64,000 bases of DNA from Desulfoscipio sp. XC116 (GTDB taxonomy: Bacteria > Bacillota > Desulfotomaculia > Desulfotomaculales > Desulfallaceae). Each line of letters opens with the position of its first letter. The first letter of the stretch is position 1. The notes under the pieces are model-generated. The model was not told the DNA's origin. It ran no database searches and saw nothing but the letters and a program-made list of their open reading frames with translations. The stretch is from contig NZ_CP156660.1 in the NCBI RefSeq assembly GCF_039851975.1, positions 2,361,035-2,425,034 on the forward strand. Reading direction: 5' to 3'. Positions 48,167 to 59,733 of the stretch are shown here, one piece after another. Made by a program: the position numbers and the translations under genes.

Positions 48167-48358
48167 CTAATTAATTTCAGAAGTCATATATTTAATTTCT
48201 CCTCTTTCATTATTGTTTAGTTTGTCATCTGGCTCACTCCATTTTTCCAAATAATATTGCCCAGTGTTTAATTTGAGCTTTTCTCCAGATTCTAATTCAA
48301 CTTTGATTTTATTAAAACTGGGTATATATTCATTGAGTTCGATATTAATATTATGTTT
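48167..48358 (-). pseudogene. 5'-truncated gene fragment, unknown function
   Basis: An open frame of about 63 codons with protein-like sequence (FNKIKVELESGEKLKLNTG; WSEPDDKLNNNERGEIKYMT) ends at a TAG but has no start codon: it is cut exactly where the repeat at 48358 begins. It looks like the C-terminal part of a hydrophilic protein whose 5' end was lost. Confidence 0.5.
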
Positions 48359-48500
48359 TTATTACTAAATTACAACCCCAAAACCCCCTTTTTTATTAAG
48401 ATAAAGAAAGGGGGCTTTCGGTTTCAAGATTATTTATTTTTATTACGACACATGTTTTAAATTATTGACAAGCACAACTTACAGGAAGTAAAGAAAAATT
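48358..48500. repeat. R element, copy 1
   Basis: About 140 bp shared with 52181-52322 and 55083-55184. The common core has a CCCCCTTT/AAAGGGGG stem around ATTAAGATAAAG, then GGCTTTCGGTTTCAA, an A/T stretch, CGACACATGTTTTAAATTAT and ACAAGCACA. The stem is terminator-like on the minus strand. See findings. Confidence 0.85.
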
Positions 48501-48540
48501 ATAGAATATTAACAAAAACAAATATAGCAAAGGTATAGCT

Positions 48541-49134
48541 ATGTTTAAAAATCCTTCTGAAAATAAAGCAAAAAAGTTAGACAAAGAATGCAGTAGATTA
48601 ATCTTCACTTTATATTATGAAACGGCCTATAAAGCGGCCTATTTTTACTGTGGAGATAAATATATAGCTGAGGAAGCGGCTCAAGAGGCCATTTATAAAG
48701 CGATTCAGAATATTCATCAACTAAATGACCCAGGCAAAATTGAAGACTGGATCAAAAAAATTGCTATAAACAATGTTAATGCAATTTTTAAGGAGCATGA
48801 AAAAGAAGTTAACCTTGAAAAATCGTTACCGATCTCGGATTTGCCGGAAAATTTACCGGAATATGTAGTTGTATCCCAAGAAACTGTGGATACTGTTGAT
48901 AGGGCTATTGAATCACTTGACCCTGTAATGAAACAGGTAATCCGCCTCCGATTCTATGAGGAAATGAAGGTTAAAGATATTTCCTTATTGCTTAACAAGC
49001 CGGAGGGTACCATTAAGATTTGGCTGTACAGGGGTAAAGCCCTAATCAAGAAACAATTGCTTAGGGAAGGCTATATAAAAATAAATGATGATTTAATAGG
49101 AGCAAAGATTATTAAGGGAGGTATCAATAAATGA
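48541..49134 (+). CDS. ECF sigma-70 family factor
   Basis: 197 residues. Region 2 is seen in YYETAYKAAYFYCGDKYIAEEAAQEA and the -10 recognition part IEDWIKKIAINNV; region 4 is LDPVMKQVIRLRFYEEMKVKDISLLLNKPEGTIKIW (quoted in part: VKDISLLLNKPEGTIKIWLY). It overlaps the next gene by 4 bases (ATGA). The pair looks like a sigma/membrane anti-sigma module. AT-rich, distinct from the core genes. Confidence 0.88.
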   Translation: MFKNPSENKAKKLDKECSRLIFTLYYETAYKAAYFYCGDKYIAEEAAQEAIYKAIQNIHQLNDPGKIEDWIKKIAINNVNAIFKEHEKEVNLEKSLPISDLPENLPEYVVVSQETVDTVDRAIESLDPVMKQVIRLRFYEEMKVKDISLLLNKPEGTIKIWLYRGKALIKKQLLREGYIKINDDLIGAKIIKGGINK

Positions 49135-49886
49135 GTGAGCGCAATCCTCATGGCTATGCCTCTATTGATGAATTAATAAAAGAAGCCCTTCAACAACGGG
49201 CAGGAAAAGATACCGACATTAATTTGGAAGAAGCATGGGAGAAATTTAATCAAAAATACCATACAAAGAAACAAAAACCGGTTTTAAAACTAGCATTAGC
49301 TGCCTGTTTGATCTGCTTAATACTGGGAGCGCCGTTATTTCTTTTTCCCGTAGAGGGGGGAGCTTTCGGCAGTAAGCTATTTAAGAGTATTAAAACGTTT
49401 CTAAACGGAAAAGTCCAATCTGTGGAAATATCTTTTAATAGTTCCCCGTGGAAAGAGAAAGAAAGCACGGAGAATTACCTGAATCCGAAAATTATCCGTG
49501 CTCTACAGGATGTCCCTTATAAGATATTGCTACCTGTTGATATGTTGGGTATGTATGAAATAAAACAAATAGAAACTGATCAGTTAGGAAACTCAACGGA
49601 AGTTAACATTACCATGGTCGGAGAAAAATCGGAGCAAATCATTATTACTGAAATAAATATAATTAAAGGTTTTGAACAGGGTATCTCCTACGATACTGAA
49701 GATGCACAAATGAAAAATGTAAAAGTTAAAGGACAAGATGCAATATTAATTAATTATAAAAATAATTTAGTAGACTTATCCTGGATGGACATGGATATAT
49801 TCATTTCTATAAGCGGAGAAGCTTCTGAAGATGATATTTTATTGCTGGCCAATGCAATGAGAAGAATTGATTACTCAACCAAATAG
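49131..49886 (+). CDS. membrane anti-sigma-like protein with DUF4367-type domain
   Basis: 251 residues: a cytoplasmic N-terminal part (1-52) likely binding the sigma factor, one membrane helix (LKLALAACLICLILGAPLFLF, about 55-75), and an extracellular domain with IRALQDVPYKILLPVDML and the C-terminal DILLLANAMRRIDY typical of DUF4367. It is coupled to the ECF gene. It ends in a 16-base convergent overlap with the next minus-strand gene. Confidence 0.8.
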   Translation: MSERNPHGYASIDELIKEALQQRAGKDTDINLEEAWEKFNQKYHTKKQKPVLKLALAACLICLILGAPLFLFPVEGGAFGSKLFKSIKTFLNGKVQSVEISFNSSPWKEKESTENYLNPKIIRALQDVPYKILLPVDMLGMYEIKQIETDQLGNSTEVNITMVGEKSEQIIITEINIIKGFEQGISYDTEDAQMKNVKVKGQDAILINYKNNLVDLSWMDMDIFISISGEASEDDILLLANAMRRIDYSTK

Positions 49887-50305
49887 GCTTTTGTGTTTGA
49901 GGTATTTGTTTCTATAGATTTACCTTTCTCTGCCCGGTGGTGACAATAAGCCCGGTATTTATAACCTTTAGCTACGGTAATTGTACCTTTGACATTACAA
50001 GAAGATTTGTTATTTGTGCTGTTGGTCCAGCTTTTTACGTTTACCCATCCCTTGGAAGTATTTTTTTGCAAGTAAACAGTTGTTGTAATACTATCAACGC
50101 TTTCGTACGTTTTTGTCTTTCCGGTAACACTGAGCACGCCATTACCGCTATCTGTTAAAAAGCACTTTGTGGTTACTAAATAATTGTATGTCTGTGGAGT
50201 AATCTCGGCTTTCGGATTATTCTCCCGGGCTAAAACAGGTTGTTCTAAAGTAAAAATCATTAACCCTATCAGCATCATTGCTATTAACTTGGAACGCTTT
50301 ACCAT
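49871..50305 (-). CDS. small secreted protein, DUF6147-like
   Basis: 144 residues with a clear signal peptide (MVKRSKLIAMMLIGLMIFTL ... VLA, cleavage near residue 26). The mature part is Ser/Thr/Lys/Asn-rich, probably beta-sheet (YLVTTKCFLTDSGNGVLSVT; TVYLQKNTSKGWVNVKSW). Two cysteines may form a disulfide. Function is unknown. Its 3' end overlaps the anti-sigma gene, so antisense interference between the two mRNAs is possible. Confidence 0.75.
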   Translation of the reverse strand: MVKRSKLIAMMLIGLMIFTLEQPVLARENNPKAEITPQTYNYLVTTKCFLTDSGNGVLSVTGKTKTYESVDSITTTVYLQKNTSKGWVNVKSWTNSTNNKSSCNVKGTITVAKGYKYRAYCHHRAEKGKSIETNTSNTKAYLVE

Positions 50306-50524
50306 CTTATATCCCCCTTATTTTATTATTTAATTACTAGATAAAAAAATCTGCCATTTAGTTTCAAAAATAATAGTAATAAACTAAAAAAATTTATAGA
50401 TGTTCTCAAGTGTCAACGGCCATTTGAGAATCCACATTTCTGGCCATTAAAAACTAGCATAATTGGACGGCATTTAACTTTCCGCTAAGCTAGTGACCGT
50501 TTATCGGAGCGAAGCAGAGACCAT

Positions 50525-50921
50525 TTACATAGAGAATCCCGTGTTAGCCTTTTGGCAAGGGGCCACAAGCGAAAAGCTAGATGCCTCGGCCCCTTTTAAA
50601 ATACGGGCGCGAGGCTCCATGTCAAGGGCGGTCCTCATCCGGTAGCTATCCCCCGTAAAAGTATGGTCAGAGGCTGTTTCGTCCATTGATAGGTAACTTA
50701 ATTCGTCTAATATAATCATGTCATTTTTAAGTATGTTATTAATTTTCCTTGTTTACATTGTTATCAGCTAGGGCAGCATAAAGATCCATAACCAAATCAT
50801 TGAAGGTGTAAAACCGCACTTGGTAACCTTCATTAACGGTGTATATACCTAGCGCTATACTAATGTGACTTTTGCCGTTATCGCAGCTATTCCGAATTCG
50901 GAATAGCTGCGATAACGGCAA
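50525..50921 (-). pseudogene. IstB-like transposition helper ATPase, fragmented
   Basis: Two short frames show IstB motifs: NSCDNGKSHISIALG (Walker A region, with glycines lost) followed by YQVRFYTFNDLVMDLYAA, and MIILDELSYLSMD (Walker B). They are separated by stops/frameshift and the N-terminal part is missing. The remaining C-terminal part has unrelated sequence. The Walker A region is disrupted by a palindrome at 50870-50923. Confidence 0.7.
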
Positions 50922-50923
50922 AA
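50870..50923. repeat. perfect 54 bp palindrome
   Basis: The 27-base arm (TTTTGCCGTTATCGCAGCTA then TTCCGAA) is followed directly by its exact complement, with no loop; the centre is GAATTC. One arm is the Walker A coding part of the istB fragment, so it arose by inverted duplication of element DNA. Confidence 0.9.
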
Positions 50924-51088
50924 CCTACCTAGCTTGTGCTTCCGGGATGATCGCCTCAATCTCAGCCGTAACCGTGGCTCAATTTGCTCCGTAAACATGG
51001 CTCATTAACTGCCAGAACAGTGACTTTAGCGAACCGAAATATGCACTAGACACCATTTTATTACCAGAGTAATGCTACTTACTAGCAC

Positions 51089-51304
51089 TTAATTTTTACG
51101 ATATTCAGATAAAACGTATCTTTCAATTCTTCTCAGTTCTTTACATGCTTTTTCTTGGGATATATTTAACACCAAAGCAATCTCAGTTAAAGTATGCACT
51201 TTACTATCAATTAAACCGTTTCTTAACCTAAACATATAAGAATCTTTATTATCTAGCTTATCAATAATTTTCAGCAATCTTTCTTTATCAAAAGCCACAT
51301 TCAT
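51089..51304 (-). CDS. small sigma-70 region 4-like protein
   Basis: 71 residues. The sequence ends with a helix-turn-helix (HTLTEIALVLNISQEKACKELRRIER) resembling sigma-70 region 4 without the other regions. It is clearly related to the product of 53395-53622 (same length, same LLxxIxxLxxxDxYxxxLRxGxI pattern). Its ATG overlaps the stop of a broken upstream gene (ATGA), the same arrangement as in the intact cassette at 53.4-54.6 kb. Confidence 0.6.
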   Translation of the reverse strand: MNVAFDKERLLKIIDKLDNKDSYMFRLRNGLIDSKVHTLTEIALVLNISQEKACKELRRIERYVLSEYRKN

Positions 51305-51493
51305 AATCCTTTCTTGTCTAAAATGATATTATCAATAATCCAATGGTTATTTTTTTTAGATAAAAAAATAACCATTGCTGTCTTATAATCAGTCGTGCCT
51401 TCAATGTCTGTAATTATTTGTCTGGACATCATAGATATTTGAGCTTTGTTGTCCCATCCAAATAGTCCAGTGTACTTTAAATTTTTTAATCAT
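51301..51493 (-). pseudogene. frameshifted homologue of the 53619-54101 protein
   Basis: From ATG at 51493 (after GAGAAGGTGG) the frame stops early, but a shift restores NKAQISMMSRQIITDIEGTT and then KKNNHWIIDNIILDKKGL up to the TGA at 51301. This aligns with the C-terminus of the 53619 product (NAQVYLTARYIK ... KWVIYNIIFKKDETGT). The long N-terminal part including the membrane helix is lost. Confidence 0.65.
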
Positions 51494-51981
51494 TTTTACC
51501 ACCTTCTCGTTTTGATTTAAATCATTTCCTTTCTAATTCACTAACATTTTTTCGACTTTGGGCTACATGTCTAGCCAAATCTATTTCTTTTAAGTCCATA
51601 TTCGCTTTCTGTACCGCCTCTTCCACCATTTTTTAATTCATAGACTACCATGCTGCCAACACGGCACCATCAGAGGATGAAATTAATACATGGGTCAGTC
51701 ACCAAAGCTTGGATATTCGTCCAATGATCTTGCAATGGGAAGGTAAAACCAACTCTCAAGTAGCTTAGCTCTTTCAGTTGCCCAATCTATAAAATCTGGC
51801 TAACCTAGTTATTAGCATTTAACTGGGTTCTTTTGCATACCCAAAACCCGAAATTCTAAGTAAGCTTTATCACTCCCATCAGGATTAATAAACATTTGTT
51901 CGCAACTTTATTCTAATTTCCGAGAGTCTACTTTGATTTAAAATTAAATCTTAGCAGTTGAAAACAGACTAAAAACGCATT
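51494..51981. other. degraded intergenic DNA
   Basis: No complete gene. A minus-strand frame of 35 codons (MVEEAVQKANMDLKEIDLAR ..., about 51527-51634) looks protein-like and may be the tail of a lost gene of the decayed cassette. Confidence 0.35.
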
Positions 51982-52110
51982 TTAATTAGAGTAGCAATAG
52001 TGGTTATGGGTGGCAATATTATGGGCACATGCCTGCAAGGTCTGTACCCGGCTTGTCCCCAGATCACTATTACTTTTTGGGGGAGGATCTCGATGTTGCC
52101 TAGTTAACAT
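51982..52110 (-). CDS. possible 42-residue small protein
   Basis: ATG at 52110 follows a very strong AAGGAGGTGAG site by 6 bases. It reads MLTRQHRDPPPKSNSDLGTS and continues to CAHNIATHNHYCYSN, with two cysteines and several histidines at the end. No family is recognised. It starts 70 bases from R element copy 2 on the same strand. Confidence 0.35.
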   Translation of the reverse strand: MLTRQHRDPPPKSNSDLGTSRVQTLQACAHNIATHNHYCYSN

Positions 52111-52180
52111 ATTAACTCACCTCCTTGTTAAGTAGTATTTAATTTTTAGATATAGCCCGGCAGTTCCGAAAAACTAAATA

Positions 52181-52322
52181 ATTATTACTAAATTATAATC
52201 AAAAAAGCCCCTTTTTTACTAAGATAAAGAAAGGGGGCTTTCGGTTTCAAAATTATTATTTTTATTCCGACACATTCTTTAAATTATCGACAAGCACAGC
52301 TCGCAGAAGTTAAAGAAAAATT
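52181..52322. repeat. R element, copy 2
   Basis: Shares the whole core with copy 1, including the flanking ATTATTACTAAATTA at one end and AAAGAAAAATT at the other. The hairpin GCCCC/GGGGC with a T-run on the minus strand would serve as a terminator. Confidence 0.85.
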
Positions 52323-52612
52323 GTTTTCACTCAAACAGTCTTGTCCGAAAATTTTTGAAATTTTACAGATATTAATAATCGTAAAAGGTCAATCAGTCCG
52401 TCCATTAGTTTTTATCATTGCCCGGGTGTCATCCATAATCAATATGTGGCAGATTTATGTGACATAAATATCTCCATTACGAGAGATTGTTATTATTGTC
52501 TCCGCTCTTGCTACTTTATTTTCCAATCGCCAGGTCTAGAACCTTCGCCTTTAGGCGAAGAGCTTTAGCATAGATTTTCCCCCCTACGCCATAATATGGT
52601 TGGGGGGATGCT

Positions 52613-53044
52613 ATGGCAGAATATCGAAAAGGGAGCCATACGGTCTACAACATTGAATACCACATGGTTTGGGTTACGAAGTACAGGTATCAAGTGTTAC
52701 GTGGTGAAGTTGCTTTGCGTACGCGAGAGCTTATACGGCAAAGTTGTTTAAGCCGTGATATCACAATAATTAGAGGTAGTGTAGGCAAGGATCATGTGCA
52801 TCTATTGATCTCCTGCCCACCTAGTTTGTCACCTTCAAAAATCATTCAATATCTTAAAGGACGGTCATCGCGGTTACTGCAACAAGAATTCGAACATTTA
52901 CGAAAGAAATATTGGGGCCAACACCTCTGGGCAAGAGGATATTTTTGTGCAACAGTAGGTGCCATCACGGAGGATATCGTTAAAGAATACGTTGAAAATC
53001 AGCAAACAGATGGACCAGAGGAAGCATTTAAAGTTGATGACTGA
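52613..53044 (+). CDS. tnpA: IS200/IS605-family Y1 transposase
   Basis: 143-residue HUH single-strand transposase. The metal-binding HUH motif is His61-Val-His63 (GKDHVHLLIS) and the catalytic tyrosine is Tyr126 (VKEYVENQQ). Length and motifs are intact, so it may be active. ATG at 52613 follows GGGGGGATGCT. The last codons form one arm of a 15 bp hairpin (53030-53062) that probably blocks transcription in or out of the element. Confidence 0.93.
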   Translation: MAEYRKGSHTVYNIEYHMVWVTKYRYQVLRGEVALRTRELIRQSCLSRDITIIRGSVGKDHVHLLISCPPSLSPSKIIQYLKGRSSRLLQQEFEHLRKKYWGQHLWARGYFCATVGAITEDIVKEYVENQQTDGPEEAFKVDD

Positions 53045-53062
53045 GTTTCAGTCATCAACTTT
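53030..53062 (+). terminator. hairpin at the end of the IS200 transposase gene
   Basis: AAAGTTGATGACTGA, a 3-base loop and its exact complement; the stop codon lies within the stem. Confidence 0.7.
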
Positions 53063-53189
53063 AAGGTTGCTTAAGCCACGGGTTGCTTTTAGCCGGCTTT
53101 AGCCGGTGGTCAGTTTAATTTTAGCCGGCTATTCATTAAAGCTGGCCAAACGGGAAACAAGGTTAGAAACAGAATTGCTTCAGAGAAGT

Positions 53190-53221
53190 GCATAACTTGA
53201 ATCCCAAAATGCAAGTTATGC
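53190..53221. other. 10 bp inverted repeat in the IS200 flank
   Basis: GCATAACTTG and CAAGTTATGC around 12 bases. It stands in a 350-base gap between the IS200 element and the 53395 gene in which nothing else was recognised. Confidence 0.4.
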
Positions 53222-53394
53222 GCCAACGGCTTTTATAATCACCTTACACAAGTATACGGATATCCGAATGCAAAGCGGTATAACCAAGCTGAAGAATACA
53301 CCTAAAAACTATGCCGAATTTTCCGAAGAAAGCCCAGTGATATAGGGTTCTGAACAATACACTGTAGGCCGCCTTGTTTATTATCCGATTATCT

Positions 53395-53622
53395 TTACGA
53401 ACCTTTTATTTCACGTAATTTGGCTTGAGCAATTTTCTCTATTTGACGTAGTTCTTTATACATTTCATCTGTAGATATATTATAGATTTTAGCTAACTCT
53501 TCAATAGACTTAGGGTTGGATTCTATAAAACCAAACCTTAGCTTTAATAGATATGCATCGTTTGAAGCTAAACTCTCAATCACTGCTAAAAGTTGTTCTG
53601 GTTTAAGGGGAGAATTCCTCAT
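53395..53622 (-). CDS. small sigma-70 region 4-like protein
   Basis: 75 residues, homologous to the 51089-51304 product. Helix-turn-helix near KSIEELAKIYNISTDEMYKELRQIEKIA (in part: SIEELAKIYNISTDEMYKEL). Its ATG overlaps the stop of the upstream membrane protein gene (ATGA), which overlaps the secreted protein gene, so three genes are coupled. It might be a small DNA-binding regulator of the cassette; that is inference. Confidence 0.65.
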   Translation of the reverse strand: MRNSPLKPEQLLAVIESLASNDAYLLKLRFGFIESNPKSIEELAKIYNISTDEMYKELRQIEKIAQAKLREIKGS

Positions 53623-54101
53623 GTTCCAGTTTCATCCTTTTTAAATATTATGTTATAAATAACCCATTTTTCTTGATTTTTACGCATTATCAGAACCATA
53701 TCAGTTGAATAAGATCTTTTCATATTCAAGTCGGATTTAATATAACGTGCTGTTAAATATACTTGCGCGTTTATTTTATCAATTATTTTGACACCTTTAA
53801 ATTGCTCAACATAACACCTAGACGTTATTTTTTGGCACTTAACATACTGCATGTTTTCCTTTAAATCCTTTAGAAACAGTCCTTTTTGTAGTTCTGGTGA
53901 ATAATAAGATATCCCTTCTTTACCTGTATAGGTTTCCCAATTGTAAGTATTACTAATTCTTAAAGCGTCAGATGCATATCGTTCAAGATACCTCTCTACT
54001 ATAATGTCAGGGACAAGCTGGAACATGAGAAGAATTAAATTAATAGCGCATATAGTAATAATTAGTTTTGTATTGCTAACTAAAAATTTACCAATCAACA
54101 T
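53619..54101 (-). CDS. membrane-anchored protein of unknown function
   Basis: 160 residues with an N-terminal membrane helix (about 12-31, LIITICAINLILLMFQLVPD) and an extracytoplasmic domain resembling conjugative or NTF2-like folds (TDMVLIMRKNQEKWVIYNII at the end). A decayed homologue lies at 51301-51493. It overlaps both neighbours (14 bases with the upstream gene, 4 with the downstream one). Function unknown. Confidence 0.65.
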   Translation of the reverse strand: MLIGKFLVSNTKLIITICAINLILLMFQLVPDIIVERYLERYASDALRISNTYNWETYTGKEGISYYSPELQKGLFLKDLKENMQYVKCQKITSRCYVEQFKGVKIIDKINAQVYLTARYIKSDLNMKRSYSTDMVLIMRKNQEKWVIYNIIFKKDETGT

Positions 54102-54648
54102 TTATAATCTTACTATAATCAGTTGATGCTTGCGAAGACGGAACAAACCTTGTATCACAATAAGAACCAACTGCCTTGCATCGCCACTGCCCCCAAGAGA
54201 CACCATAGATTCCGGTAGCGGTTTCTACATTGCTGGTATTCTCTTTTTCAACAACTCGCACACTCTGTTCTCTAATCCATTTACCACCAGCAGGACTAGC
54301 ATACTGTAACTCTGCACGGATAGATAACTTTTGGGCAACCGGTTTACTTGATATTTTCCCATAATATTTAAAATTTTGTTTTTTCTTATCCAAAGAAAGC
54401 TTTGCCCAAACTGCACAAATGATACCAGGAGAAGAGCCTTCTGCAGAAGAATTAATCGTACTTGGTTCATCAAGCGAATTTTCATCATTTGTAACTTGGA
54501 GTAAATCTATTTTGTTTGAATCTTTTAAAACGGGAGCCGCAAAGCCTTGATCATCTACCAACTCAGAATATGCAAAAACGGTTGAGTTGGCCACAAAAAG
54601 ACAAATAATAAATACAACAAGAGCATAGTACACTCTTTTTTTATGCAT
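54088..54648 (-). CDS. secreted protein of unknown function
   Basis: 186 residues with a signal peptide (MHKKRVYYALVVFIICLFVA, cleavage near residue 26). The mature part has a linker (27-65) and a beta-rich domain with IICAVWAKLSLDKKKQNFKY and WRCKAVGSYCDTRFVP; its three or so cysteines may form disulfides. First gene of the three-gene coupled cassette. Organisation and size recall the secreted 49871 protein, but sequences are not clearly related. Confidence 0.65.
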   Translation of the reverse strand: MHKKRVYYALVVFIICLFVANSTVFAYSELVDDQGFAAPVLKDSNKIDLLQVTNDENSLDEPSTINSSAEGSSPGIICAVWAKLSLDKKKQNFKYYGKISSKPVAQKLSIRAELQYASPAGGKWIREQSVRVVEKENTSNVETATGIYGVSWGQWRCKAVGSYCDTRFVPSSQASTDYSKIINVDW

Positions 54649-55082
54649 TATATATTTTCCTCCCTTTTAGTTATTAAAAGTATCTTCCCACACACTACAA
54701 CAATTGTCCTGAATCTGCACTTTGGAATAACTTACAAGACAAGCAAGATAGATGTAACACCTCCCATCCTCTTAAGCTTCCTTTAAAAAGCTAGATGTTT
54801 TAGCGTACGTCCGCTTTAAATTCCCCAAAAAAGCTAAGTCAAGATAACATGTGTTAATGCTTTGTGCGGTCTAACTATGATGTATTTATTCGGACTTCTC
54901 TGGTATACCACGAACCACTTATTTAACAAGAATCATTGGAAATGTTATTAACCGCGATATGACTAAACTGGCTAATCCACTTGCGTTAGTGCGCGACATT
55001 GGGCCTGTGTTCTCTGCCGGTATATTTCTCCTGTGACATACCCCCATTGTTTTCTAAATATTCCTTTAGAATTCTTTCCTTC
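54649..55082. other. intergenic region, nothing recognised
   Basis: AT-rich DNA without a supported gene. It probably holds the promoter of the 54088-54648 cassette. Short frames are interrupted and match no family I know. Confidence 0.4.
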
Positions 55083-55184
55083 ACCCCCTTTTAAACTAAG
55101 ATAAAAAAAGGGGGCTTTCGGTTTCAAAATTATTTATTTTTATTCCGACACATGTTTTAAATTATCAACAAATACAGCTTCGGC
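55083..55184. repeat. R element, copy 3 (shorter)
   Basis: Matches copies 1 and 2 from the CCCCCTTTT stem to TAAATTATCAACAAATACAGCT. It lacks the ATTATTACTAAATTA flank. Confidence 0.8.
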
Positions 55185-55319: not shown

Positions 55320-55655
55320 TTAGTTTTCCAATTCTTTCTTTAGTTCAAATACAGTCTCCATGGATAGTCCAGTTATTTCTGCCACGTCATTCACAGAGAG
55401 ACCCTTTTTCAAAGCAATTTTGGCTACCTCAACTTTGCCTTCAATTTTACCTTCGATTTTGCCCTTTGTTTGACCTTCTTTAATTCCTTTTTCCATTCCC
55501 CTTGCTTTAGCTGCCCTTTGCATCTCGTCCAGCGTCCGCTCAATGTTGGTGATCATTTCTTCCACCTCCCGGGGTTCGCTTTTATCCAGTACATGTTCAA
55601 TTTCCTTTTGCAATGCTCCTGGCAATTTGCGCTTTATCACGTTCCTCAGCCACAC
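55320..55655 (-). pseudogene. C-terminal fragment of an Rpn-family nuclease/transposase, copy A
   Basis: 111 residues with no nuclease domain. Sequence: LRNVIKRKLPGALQKEIEHVL, a coiled region, GKIEGKIEGKVE repeats and GLSVNDVAEITGLSMETVFE. Such tails belong to the Rpn (PD-(D/E)XK) transposase-like family. It is truncated at 55666, where the DUF4097 gene's end adjoins. Probably not functional. Confidence 0.7.
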
Positions 55656-59213: not shown

Positions 59214-59675
59214 AGAGGAATAAACCGCCATTCTTTTTCGAGAACATCAAAAAGCCCTTACCCCTTTTTATAGGTACGGGTAAGAGCCAACTTCACTTTT
59301 AATTTTAGTTTTCCAATTCTTTCTTTAGTTCAAATACAGTCTCCATGGATAGCCCGGTTATTTCCGCCACGTCATTCACAGAGAGACCCTTTTTCAAAGC
59401 AATTTTGGCTACCTCAACTTTGCCTTCAATTTTGCCTTCAATTTTGCCTTCGATTTTGCCTTCAATTTTGCCCTTTGTTTGACCTTCTTTAATTCCTTTT
59501 TCCATTCCCCTTGCTTCAGCTGCCCTTTGCATCTCGTCCAGCGTCCGCTCAATGTTGGTGATCATTTCTTCCACCTCCCGGGGTTCGCTTTTATCTAGTA
59601 CATGTTCAATTTCCTTTTGCAATGCTCCTGGCAATTTGCGCTTTATCACGTTCCGCAGCCACACTATTATCTGCC
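59214..59675. repeat. direct repeat B (copy of 55229-55666)
   Basis: Second copy of the 440 bp direct repeat with two extra 12-bp GKIE units. The two copies bracket the 55.7-58.7 kb ECF operon. Confidence 0.85.
59249..59287 (-). terminator. terminator of Rpn fragment B
   Basis: Same GCTCTTACC/GGTAAGGGC hairpin and T-run as at 55264-55302. Confidence 0.7.
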
Positions 59676-59733
59676 GGAATTGCTCCTGGTCCATTTCTTT
59701 CAATACGTCGGCTAAATTCTTAAGACGAGACAC
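59305..59733 (-). pseudogene. C-terminal fragment of an Rpn-family nuclease/transposase, copy B
   Basis: 142 residues, longer at the N-terminus than copy A (MSRLKNLADVLKEMDQEQFR) and with four GKIE units. The N-terminal PD-(D/E)XK nuclease domain is missing; the family is usually about 250-330 residues. It adjoins an IS91 remnant, which probably cut it. Confidence 0.65.

Follow-up and report, generated by a model that had tools for sequence, protein, structure and literature searches.

A non-coding element repeated three times in Desulfoscipio sp. XC116 is probably a duplicated promoter region read by an adjacent extracytoplasmic function sigma factor

The element discussed here, R, occurs three times on the minus strand within 7 kb of a 64,000-nucleotide stretch of the Desulfoscipio sp. 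XC116 genome (contig NZ_CP156660.1, positions 2,361,035 to 2,425,034; hereafter the window, to which positions refer unless a contig is named). We consider it probable that R is not a gene but a duplicated promoter region dependent on an extracytoplasmic function (ECF) sigma factor, and that the ECF sigma factor encoded beside copy 1 is its likely reader. An earlier note on this DNA had reported the three copies, and they were borne out as the only ones in the whole 4.26 Mb genome, with 87-91% identity (87% over 142 aligned bp between copies 1 and 2, and 89-91% over 95-98 bp between copy 3 and the other two) and with the next-best match at E = 0.35. The repeat is real and far above chance expectation. 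Copy 3, which the note had drawn from 55083 to 55184, is present but matches only as far as 55180. The shared core was found as described, with a CCCCC/GGGGG stem (one arm being CCCC in copy 2), GGCTTTCGGTTTCAA and, in copies 1 and 3, CGACACATGTTTTAAATTAT, and a weaker form of the core recurs at 50339-50375 (repeat family D4). The claim that no protein is encoded also held, as the frames of at least 40 amino acids that overlap a copy (48462-48608, 52321-52467 and 54972-55127) differ between copies and none is common to them. A tRNA search was empty.

All three copies carry on the minus strand a bipartite promoter-like site, TTGAAAC-N16-TTATCTTA. ECF factors commonly recognise -35 elements of the GAAAC type. 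The exact pattern TTGAAAC-N16-TTATCT occurs four times in the genome, always on the minus strand and always in this cluster, namely in the three R copies and at a fourth site before the gene of a secreted-type protein, p144 (Table 1). Each copy lies upstream of small minus-strand genes, as had been claimed, but copy 1 also precedes the plus-strand ECF sigma gene, which starts 40 bp beyond it. The 197-amino-acid product of this gene matches Pfam Sigma70_r2, Sigma70_r4_2 and TIGR02937 (sigma70-ECF), all above cut-off. The gene of a DUF4367 protein, a probable anti-sigma factor, adjoins the sigma gene here and in relatives. We infer that the R sites are putative promoters and that the ECF sigma factor at 48541 reads them, since the TTGAAAC and TCT elements stand at fixed spacing, since relatives have TTGCAAC paired with TCGTCTTA and CTGTCTAG as variants, and since near-exact matches are confined to genomes with a close sigma factor.

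This confinement emerged from a search of 113 genomes of the order (handles G000, our own, and so on) with the three-part pattern TGTCG-N18-TTGAAAC-N16-TTRTCT, in which a TGTCG box precedes the promoter-like site. Allowing at most one mismatch, there were 7 matches (5 exact and 2 with one mismatch) vs. 2 in the reversed control, comprising copies 1 and 3, one site in G033, and two sites each in G050 and G054. A profile of the sigma factor matched 36 of the 113 genomes at E <= 1e-25, and 8 of them (our own and 7 others) at E < 1e-70, a cut-off chosen after seeing the gap from 1.6e-72 to 4e-46. The four genomes with three-part matches all fall within these eight (hypergeometric probability 1.1e-5, or 1.5e-4 without our own genome). 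A stricter pattern ending in TTATCTWRG found only copies 2 and 3, missed sites ending in TTATCTAGT, and was discarded. The DUF4367 profile matched 27 genomes at E <= 1e-8, with a close group, whose best E values were about 1e-76 or below, formed by G000, G050, G034, G056, G033, G054, G052, G051 and G041; G052 is outside the 36 sigma-matching genomes and has an IS66-like frame in its sigma region.

A scan of named genomes yielded two loci, in Desulforamulus aeronauticus DSM 10349 (G050) and D. aquiferis (G051). In D. aeronauticus, the only one of the 113 genomes besides our own with a match to p160 at E <= 0.001, the cassette p186-p160-p75 recurs in the same gene order, with a conserved R stretch about 480 bp upstream whose minus strand shares with R the pattern TTTTGAAACC-N15-TTATCT and the TGTCG box. 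This stretch holds one of the two exact TTGAAAC-N16-TTATCT sites of that genome. The other (C45:23256) is divergent from the sigma gene, in the place of copy 1, on a contig encoding orthologues of the ECF sigma factor (60% identity), the DUF4367 protein (43%) and p144 (42%), and the p144 relative is preceded by a one-mismatch form of the site.

The same arrangement extends to other relatives. For example, G033 has the exact site divergent from the sigma gene and before p144. Sites of this type also stand divergent from the sigma gene in G034, G051, G054 and G041, and before p144 in G034 (contig 39), G051, G052 and G054, while G034 and G054 each have a second divergent-type site before other genes. 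Variants in relatives (TTGCAAC or TTAAAAC at -35; TCGTCTTA, CTGTCTAG or TTGTCTAG at -10) keep the AAC and TCT cores, and sites with both cores at equal or nearly equal spacing occupy corresponding places in G034, G051, G054 and G041. G056 has two degenerate sites near the cluster, one of them before a secreted-type protein, and these two are outside all counts for the 20 sites that were aligned (13 of divergent/cassette type and 7 of p144 type). In G053 (L132, 1548-2790), the only two-mismatch match of 22 whose surroundings were examined, an R-type site precedes genes encoding a secreted, Ntox44 toxin-like protein and a protein with DUF5412. In a second group of relatives, G096, G100 and G101 have by eye TGCAACC...TCTA before p144 relatives, with a similar stretch in G098. 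At the DNA level, a search for homologues of R in 7 genomes of the genus and 16 of the family (own included) returned nine matches outside our own genome, none with the second half of the motif; three of them (L023, L025 and L032) carry TTTTGAAACC. Taken together, the recurrent -35/-10-like pattern agrees with the part of the earlier note that saw in R a minus-strand regulatory element upstream of small accessory genes.

We hypothesize that the DUF4367 protein would hold the ECF sigma factor until a signal arrives, and that the freed sigma factor would then transcribe from copies 1 to 3 and from the site at 50337-50367, so that a set of small secreted or membrane proteins is made together. Copy 1, which lies divergent from the sigma operon, would probably be the original, its own target gene having been truncated; of the cassettes headed by the other two copies, that of copy 2 (p43 and p71) has decayed and that of copy 3 (p186, p160 and p75) is intact. 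Not every copy need be useful now, because copy 1 faces a truncated frame and copy 2 a decayed cassette. R is not merely a passenger of an old cassette duplication, since the R copies are about 90% identical whereas the adjoining protein pairs, p71/p75 and p43/p160, share only 35-36% identity. R-type sites also tend to be more alike within a genome (82-86% in the window, 78% in G034 and 72% in G054) than between genomes (39-73%), and R was therefore probably duplicated within this lineage or is undergoing homogenisation; the exceptions are the two sites of G050, at only 49%, and the overlap of the G054 value with a 73% pair of G054 and G053 sites.

Several observations weigh against the adjacent ECF sigma factor as reader. 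ECF factors usually, though not obligatorily, autoregulate (according to part of the text of PMC3817407), yet the site of copy 1 reads in the opposite direction to the sigma gene, and within 48201-48541 no site of the kind faces that gene, so that its transcription must start by other means. About 450 bp separate copy 3 from p186. The -35 and -10 of all three copies also fit a sigma-70-type promoter (TTGAAA-18-TATCTT) at 9 of 12 positions. Matches to TTGAAAC-N16-TTATCT with one mismatch numbered 16 vs. 7 in the reversed control in our own genome, and 19 vs. 10 in G050, and are mostly noise since they are only about twofold above control. Likewise, the three-part pattern with up to two mismatches showed no enrichment (29 matches, 22 of them with two mismatches, vs. 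28 in the control), and only near-exact matches therefore carry weight; at one mismatch or fewer, half of the eight sigma genomes (G034, G041, G051 and G056) have none. In G056, an IS110-type transposase gene lies between the other site and p144; G041 C20 showed no p144-type site; and G053 has its site although that genome gave no sigma match at E <= 1e-25. Finally, the conservation of the cores in the 20 aligned sites is partly due to selection, because most of the sites were found via those cores.

The sigma-70-type fit is also the starting point of an alternative in which R is a housekeeping (sigma-A) promoter activated through its TGTCG boxes by Spo0A or another regulator, and the ECF factor is not its reader. 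The boxes in the window read TGTCGTA or TGTCGGA, one mismatch off the Spo0A box (0A box) TGTCGAA (as given in part of the text of PMC3485338), and perfect TGTCGAA occurs at the divergent and cassette sites of G050, the divergent site of G033 and the second site of G054. In 8 of the 13 divergent/cassette sites the distance from TGTCG to the -35 is exactly 18 nt (in copy 2 it is 17 nt), although 6 of 11 is the fairer figure because the G053 site and the second G054 site were found using the box in the pattern. A Spo0A gene is present in 5/5 genomes searched. In the ECF reading as well, the putative box may bind a regulator such as Spo0A, and its sequence suggests stationary-phase entry or sporulation as an input. 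Nonetheless, the seven p144-type sites share the -35 and -10 without a box at 18 nt (0/7), the variants in relatives keep AAC and TCT with no drift towards TTGACA and TATAAT (in part an effect of how the sites were selected), and the three-part matches at one mismatch or fewer are confined to genomes with the close sigma factor. We therefore regard a sigma-A promoter as unlikely.

A more elaborate version of the ECF-dependent promoter, which we hold to be doubtful, treats R as a two-lock switch, in which a Spo0A-like box and the ECF promoter would set the start of transcription and a hairpin would block translation of read-through RNA. An inverted C/G repeat brackets the -10 box, and its 3' arm is a Shine-Dalgarno-like G-tract. 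A read-through transcript would form the hairpin and not be translated, whereas one begun at the ECF promoter would be free, having no 5' arm, and the control cassette would have been copied within the genome before new secreted-protein genes and kept alike there. The hairpin region of R folds better than plain shuffles (z -3.1 to -4.6), and z <= -2.6 by this measure was reached at 8 of 17 folded sites (the three R copies, the p144 site of G050, the divergent sites of G033 and G054, the second G054 site and the G053 site), the other nine being weaker and the sites of G051 and G052 lying outside the set. When arms were paired by duplex energy across 18 of the 20 sites (copies 1 and 2 were excluded as near-duplicates of copy 3), the cognate partner ranked first at the p144 site of G050 and the divergent sites of G033 and G051, but came only 16th of 18 at the second site of G054 and last at that of G034; overall, 1121 of 20000 permutations were at least as good (p = 0.056). 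The copies in the window have no ATG within 15 nt past the G-tract. The hairpin is thus a suggestive lead only, given this p value and the finding that a structured model did no better than sequence. As a separate observation, the divergent-type sites of G054 (L130) and G051 (L074) have very short frames after the G-tract, possibly leader minigenes (ATG GAT TAA twice in G054, ATG AAT ATT TGA in G051).

The same fold bears on the suggestion that R is transcribed from the minus strand as a small RNA or a structured leader or attenuator whose end is the C/G hairpin; this now appears very unlikely. The copies do fold better than dinucleotide shuffles (z -1.45 to -2.76 on the minus strand and -1.16 to -4.42 on the plus strand), and a T-run follows the stem in copy 2; of the terminator-like stems claimed for the end of each copy, only this one stood, by sequence (the stem, then CTTTTTTG), and those of copies 1 and 3 did not, while a terminator scan, limited to loops of 3-8, found no site inside any copy. 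However, the Rfam 15 covariance models gave no match in the window at gathering score, strong pairing is missing at several sites, and transcription would begin inside the hairpin if the site is a promoter. In searches of related genomes, of the kind that the earlier note had called for, models with and without structure performed alike. A structured model (R1) gave 8 matches at E <= 0.01 over the 113 genomes, namely the three copies, two in G034 and one in G054 at promoter sites, and two others (own C1:2355737 and one in G058) that were judged unrelated from sequence and frames, and a sequence-only model (R2) was about as good on 10 loci of other genomes. What recurs is the promoter-like pattern, and the multi-copy small RNA is not supported.

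Least probable is a non-autonomous mobile unit resembling a miniature inverted-repeat transposable element: three near-identical copies have differing flanks, and a gene for an IS200/IS605-type transposase lies 0.3 kb from copy 2, but the copies form one 7-kb cluster in the genome, share one orientation, always stand at promoter positions, have no match in plasmid and phage collections and, by eye, show no target-site duplication at their ends.

Table 1. Positions in the window of the R copies, their promoter-like sites and the neighbouring genes.
Feature	Position	Strand	Remarks
Open frame without start	48167-48346	minus	apparently 3' end of a truncated gene; beside copy 1
R copy 1	48358-48500	minus	intergenic, divergent from ECF sigma gene; promoter-like site points away from sigma
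Copy 1, -35-like TTGAAAC	48421-48427	minus	-10-like TTATCTTA at 48397-48404; 16 nt spacer
Copy 1, Spo0A-box-like TGTCGTA	48444-48450	minus	TGTCG 18 nt upstream of -35
ECF sigma factor	48541-49134	plus	proposed promoter reader; Sigma70_r2 and Sigma70_r4_2
DUF4367 protein	49131-49886	plus	membrane-helix-like stretch (by eye); gene overlaps sigma gene
p144	49871-50305	minus	144-aa secreted-type protein; beyond sigma/DUF4367 pair
Fourth promoter-like site	50337-50367	minus	TTGAAAC-N16-TTATCTAG; about 30 bp upstream of p144
p71	51089-51304	minus	71-aa sigma-region-4-like protein; 53% identity to D. aeronauticus cassette protein
p43	51301-51432	minus	43-aa remnant of 160-aa protein family; N-terminal part missing
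42-aa candidate frame	51982-52110	minus	strong ribosome binding site; about 110 bp past copy 2 -10
R copy 2	52181-52322	minus	-35 52244-52250; -10 52220-52227; box 52266-52272, TGTCG at 17 nt
Copy 2, second box TGTCGAT	52286-52292	minus	
p75	53395-53622	minus	75-aa sigma-region-4-like protein; 36% identity to p71
p160	53619-54101	minus	160-aa protein; N-terminal hydrophobic stretch
p186	54088-54648	minus	186-aa secreted-type protein; first gene of cassette
R copy 3	55083-55180	minus	-35 55121-55127; -10 55097-55104; box 55144-55150; upstream of p186-p160-p75 cassette

Regarding the neighbouring genes, a comparison of the truncated frame beside copy 1 with 149 loci gave no relative (best other E = 0.38). 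A structure model of p144 (8 sequences, mean predicted local distance difference test score 80.8) consists of a signal-like helix followed by an all-beta domain, and its best structural match is CsgH (E = 3.6e-4; template modelling score 0.39 by query and 0.51 by target), from which no function follows. The small free-standing sigma-region-4-like proteins p71 and p75, each the last in its cassette, could modulate RNA polymerase. Elsewhere in our genome (C1:2699994-2700716) there is a second, distant sigma/DUF4367 system with a p144-like protein divergently encoded, and a motif scan of that locus gave no match. The IS200/IS605-type transposase gene (52540-53120) has hairpin-like stretches near both ends by eye. 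A perfect 54-bp palindrome (50870-50923; 27 + 27 nt, no spacer) stands at the start of a 60-amino-acid frame that Pfam assigns to IstB of IS21, and the adjoining 64-amino-acid frame had no match. Two gene copies 4 kb apart (55320-55655, the shorter one, and 59305-59733), which are 92-96% identical, resemble the end of Rpn-type recombination-promoting nucleases (TIGR01784, below its cut-off).

If R is indeed a duplicated ECF-dependent promoter region, an unexplained repeat becomes a testable regulon in which one ECF sigma factor would act at four predicted promoters. As many as six small proteins would belong to it, of secreted, membrane or sigma-region-4-like type and one of them a remnant, with partial conservation in Desulforamulus and relatives. 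The same type of site heads other secreted-type proteins in relatives (Ntox44 in G053, at a weaker site), a hint that exported proteins may here form an inducible set, and R would be a case of promoter duplication as a route for adding genes to a sigma regulon. In the open-access library searched we found no description of this system and no paper linking an ECF sigma factor, or sigma factors, with DUF4367; on ECF sigma promoters in Desulfotomaculum there was only what its title and abstract present as a database paper, and a term search of the text of the ECF review PMC8103513 did not find DUF4367.

Three known systems invite comparison. In the leader of T4 gene e, a promoter lies inside a hairpin that sequesters the Shine-Dalgarno sequence (according to part of the text of PMC3014915); similarly, the -10 of R lies between inverted-repeat arms, the 3' arm is Shine-Dalgarno-like, and only read-through RNA could fold. 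Unlike the T4 leader, however, R belongs to a cellular sigma system, lacks an ATG close to the G-tract, and pairs over all sites at the borderline value given above. R shares with the Spo0A box the TGTCG core, which some relatives complete to the perfect box, but the boxes in the window depart from the consensus. With ECF sigma/anti-sigma systems, R has in common an ECF sigma factor beside a protein with a membrane-helix-like stretch, and a GAAAC-type -35 with a TCT-containing -10 at fixed spacing, whose exact matches in our genome lie only near the sigma gene or its presumed targets. It differs from them in that its site lies on the divergent side of the sigma gene and not ahead of it, that its presumed targets are small secreted or membrane proteins encoded in duplicated cassettes, and that an extra TGTCG box lies 17-18 nt upstream. 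The R system is most likely an ECF regulon of a known general kind, with some uncommon features.

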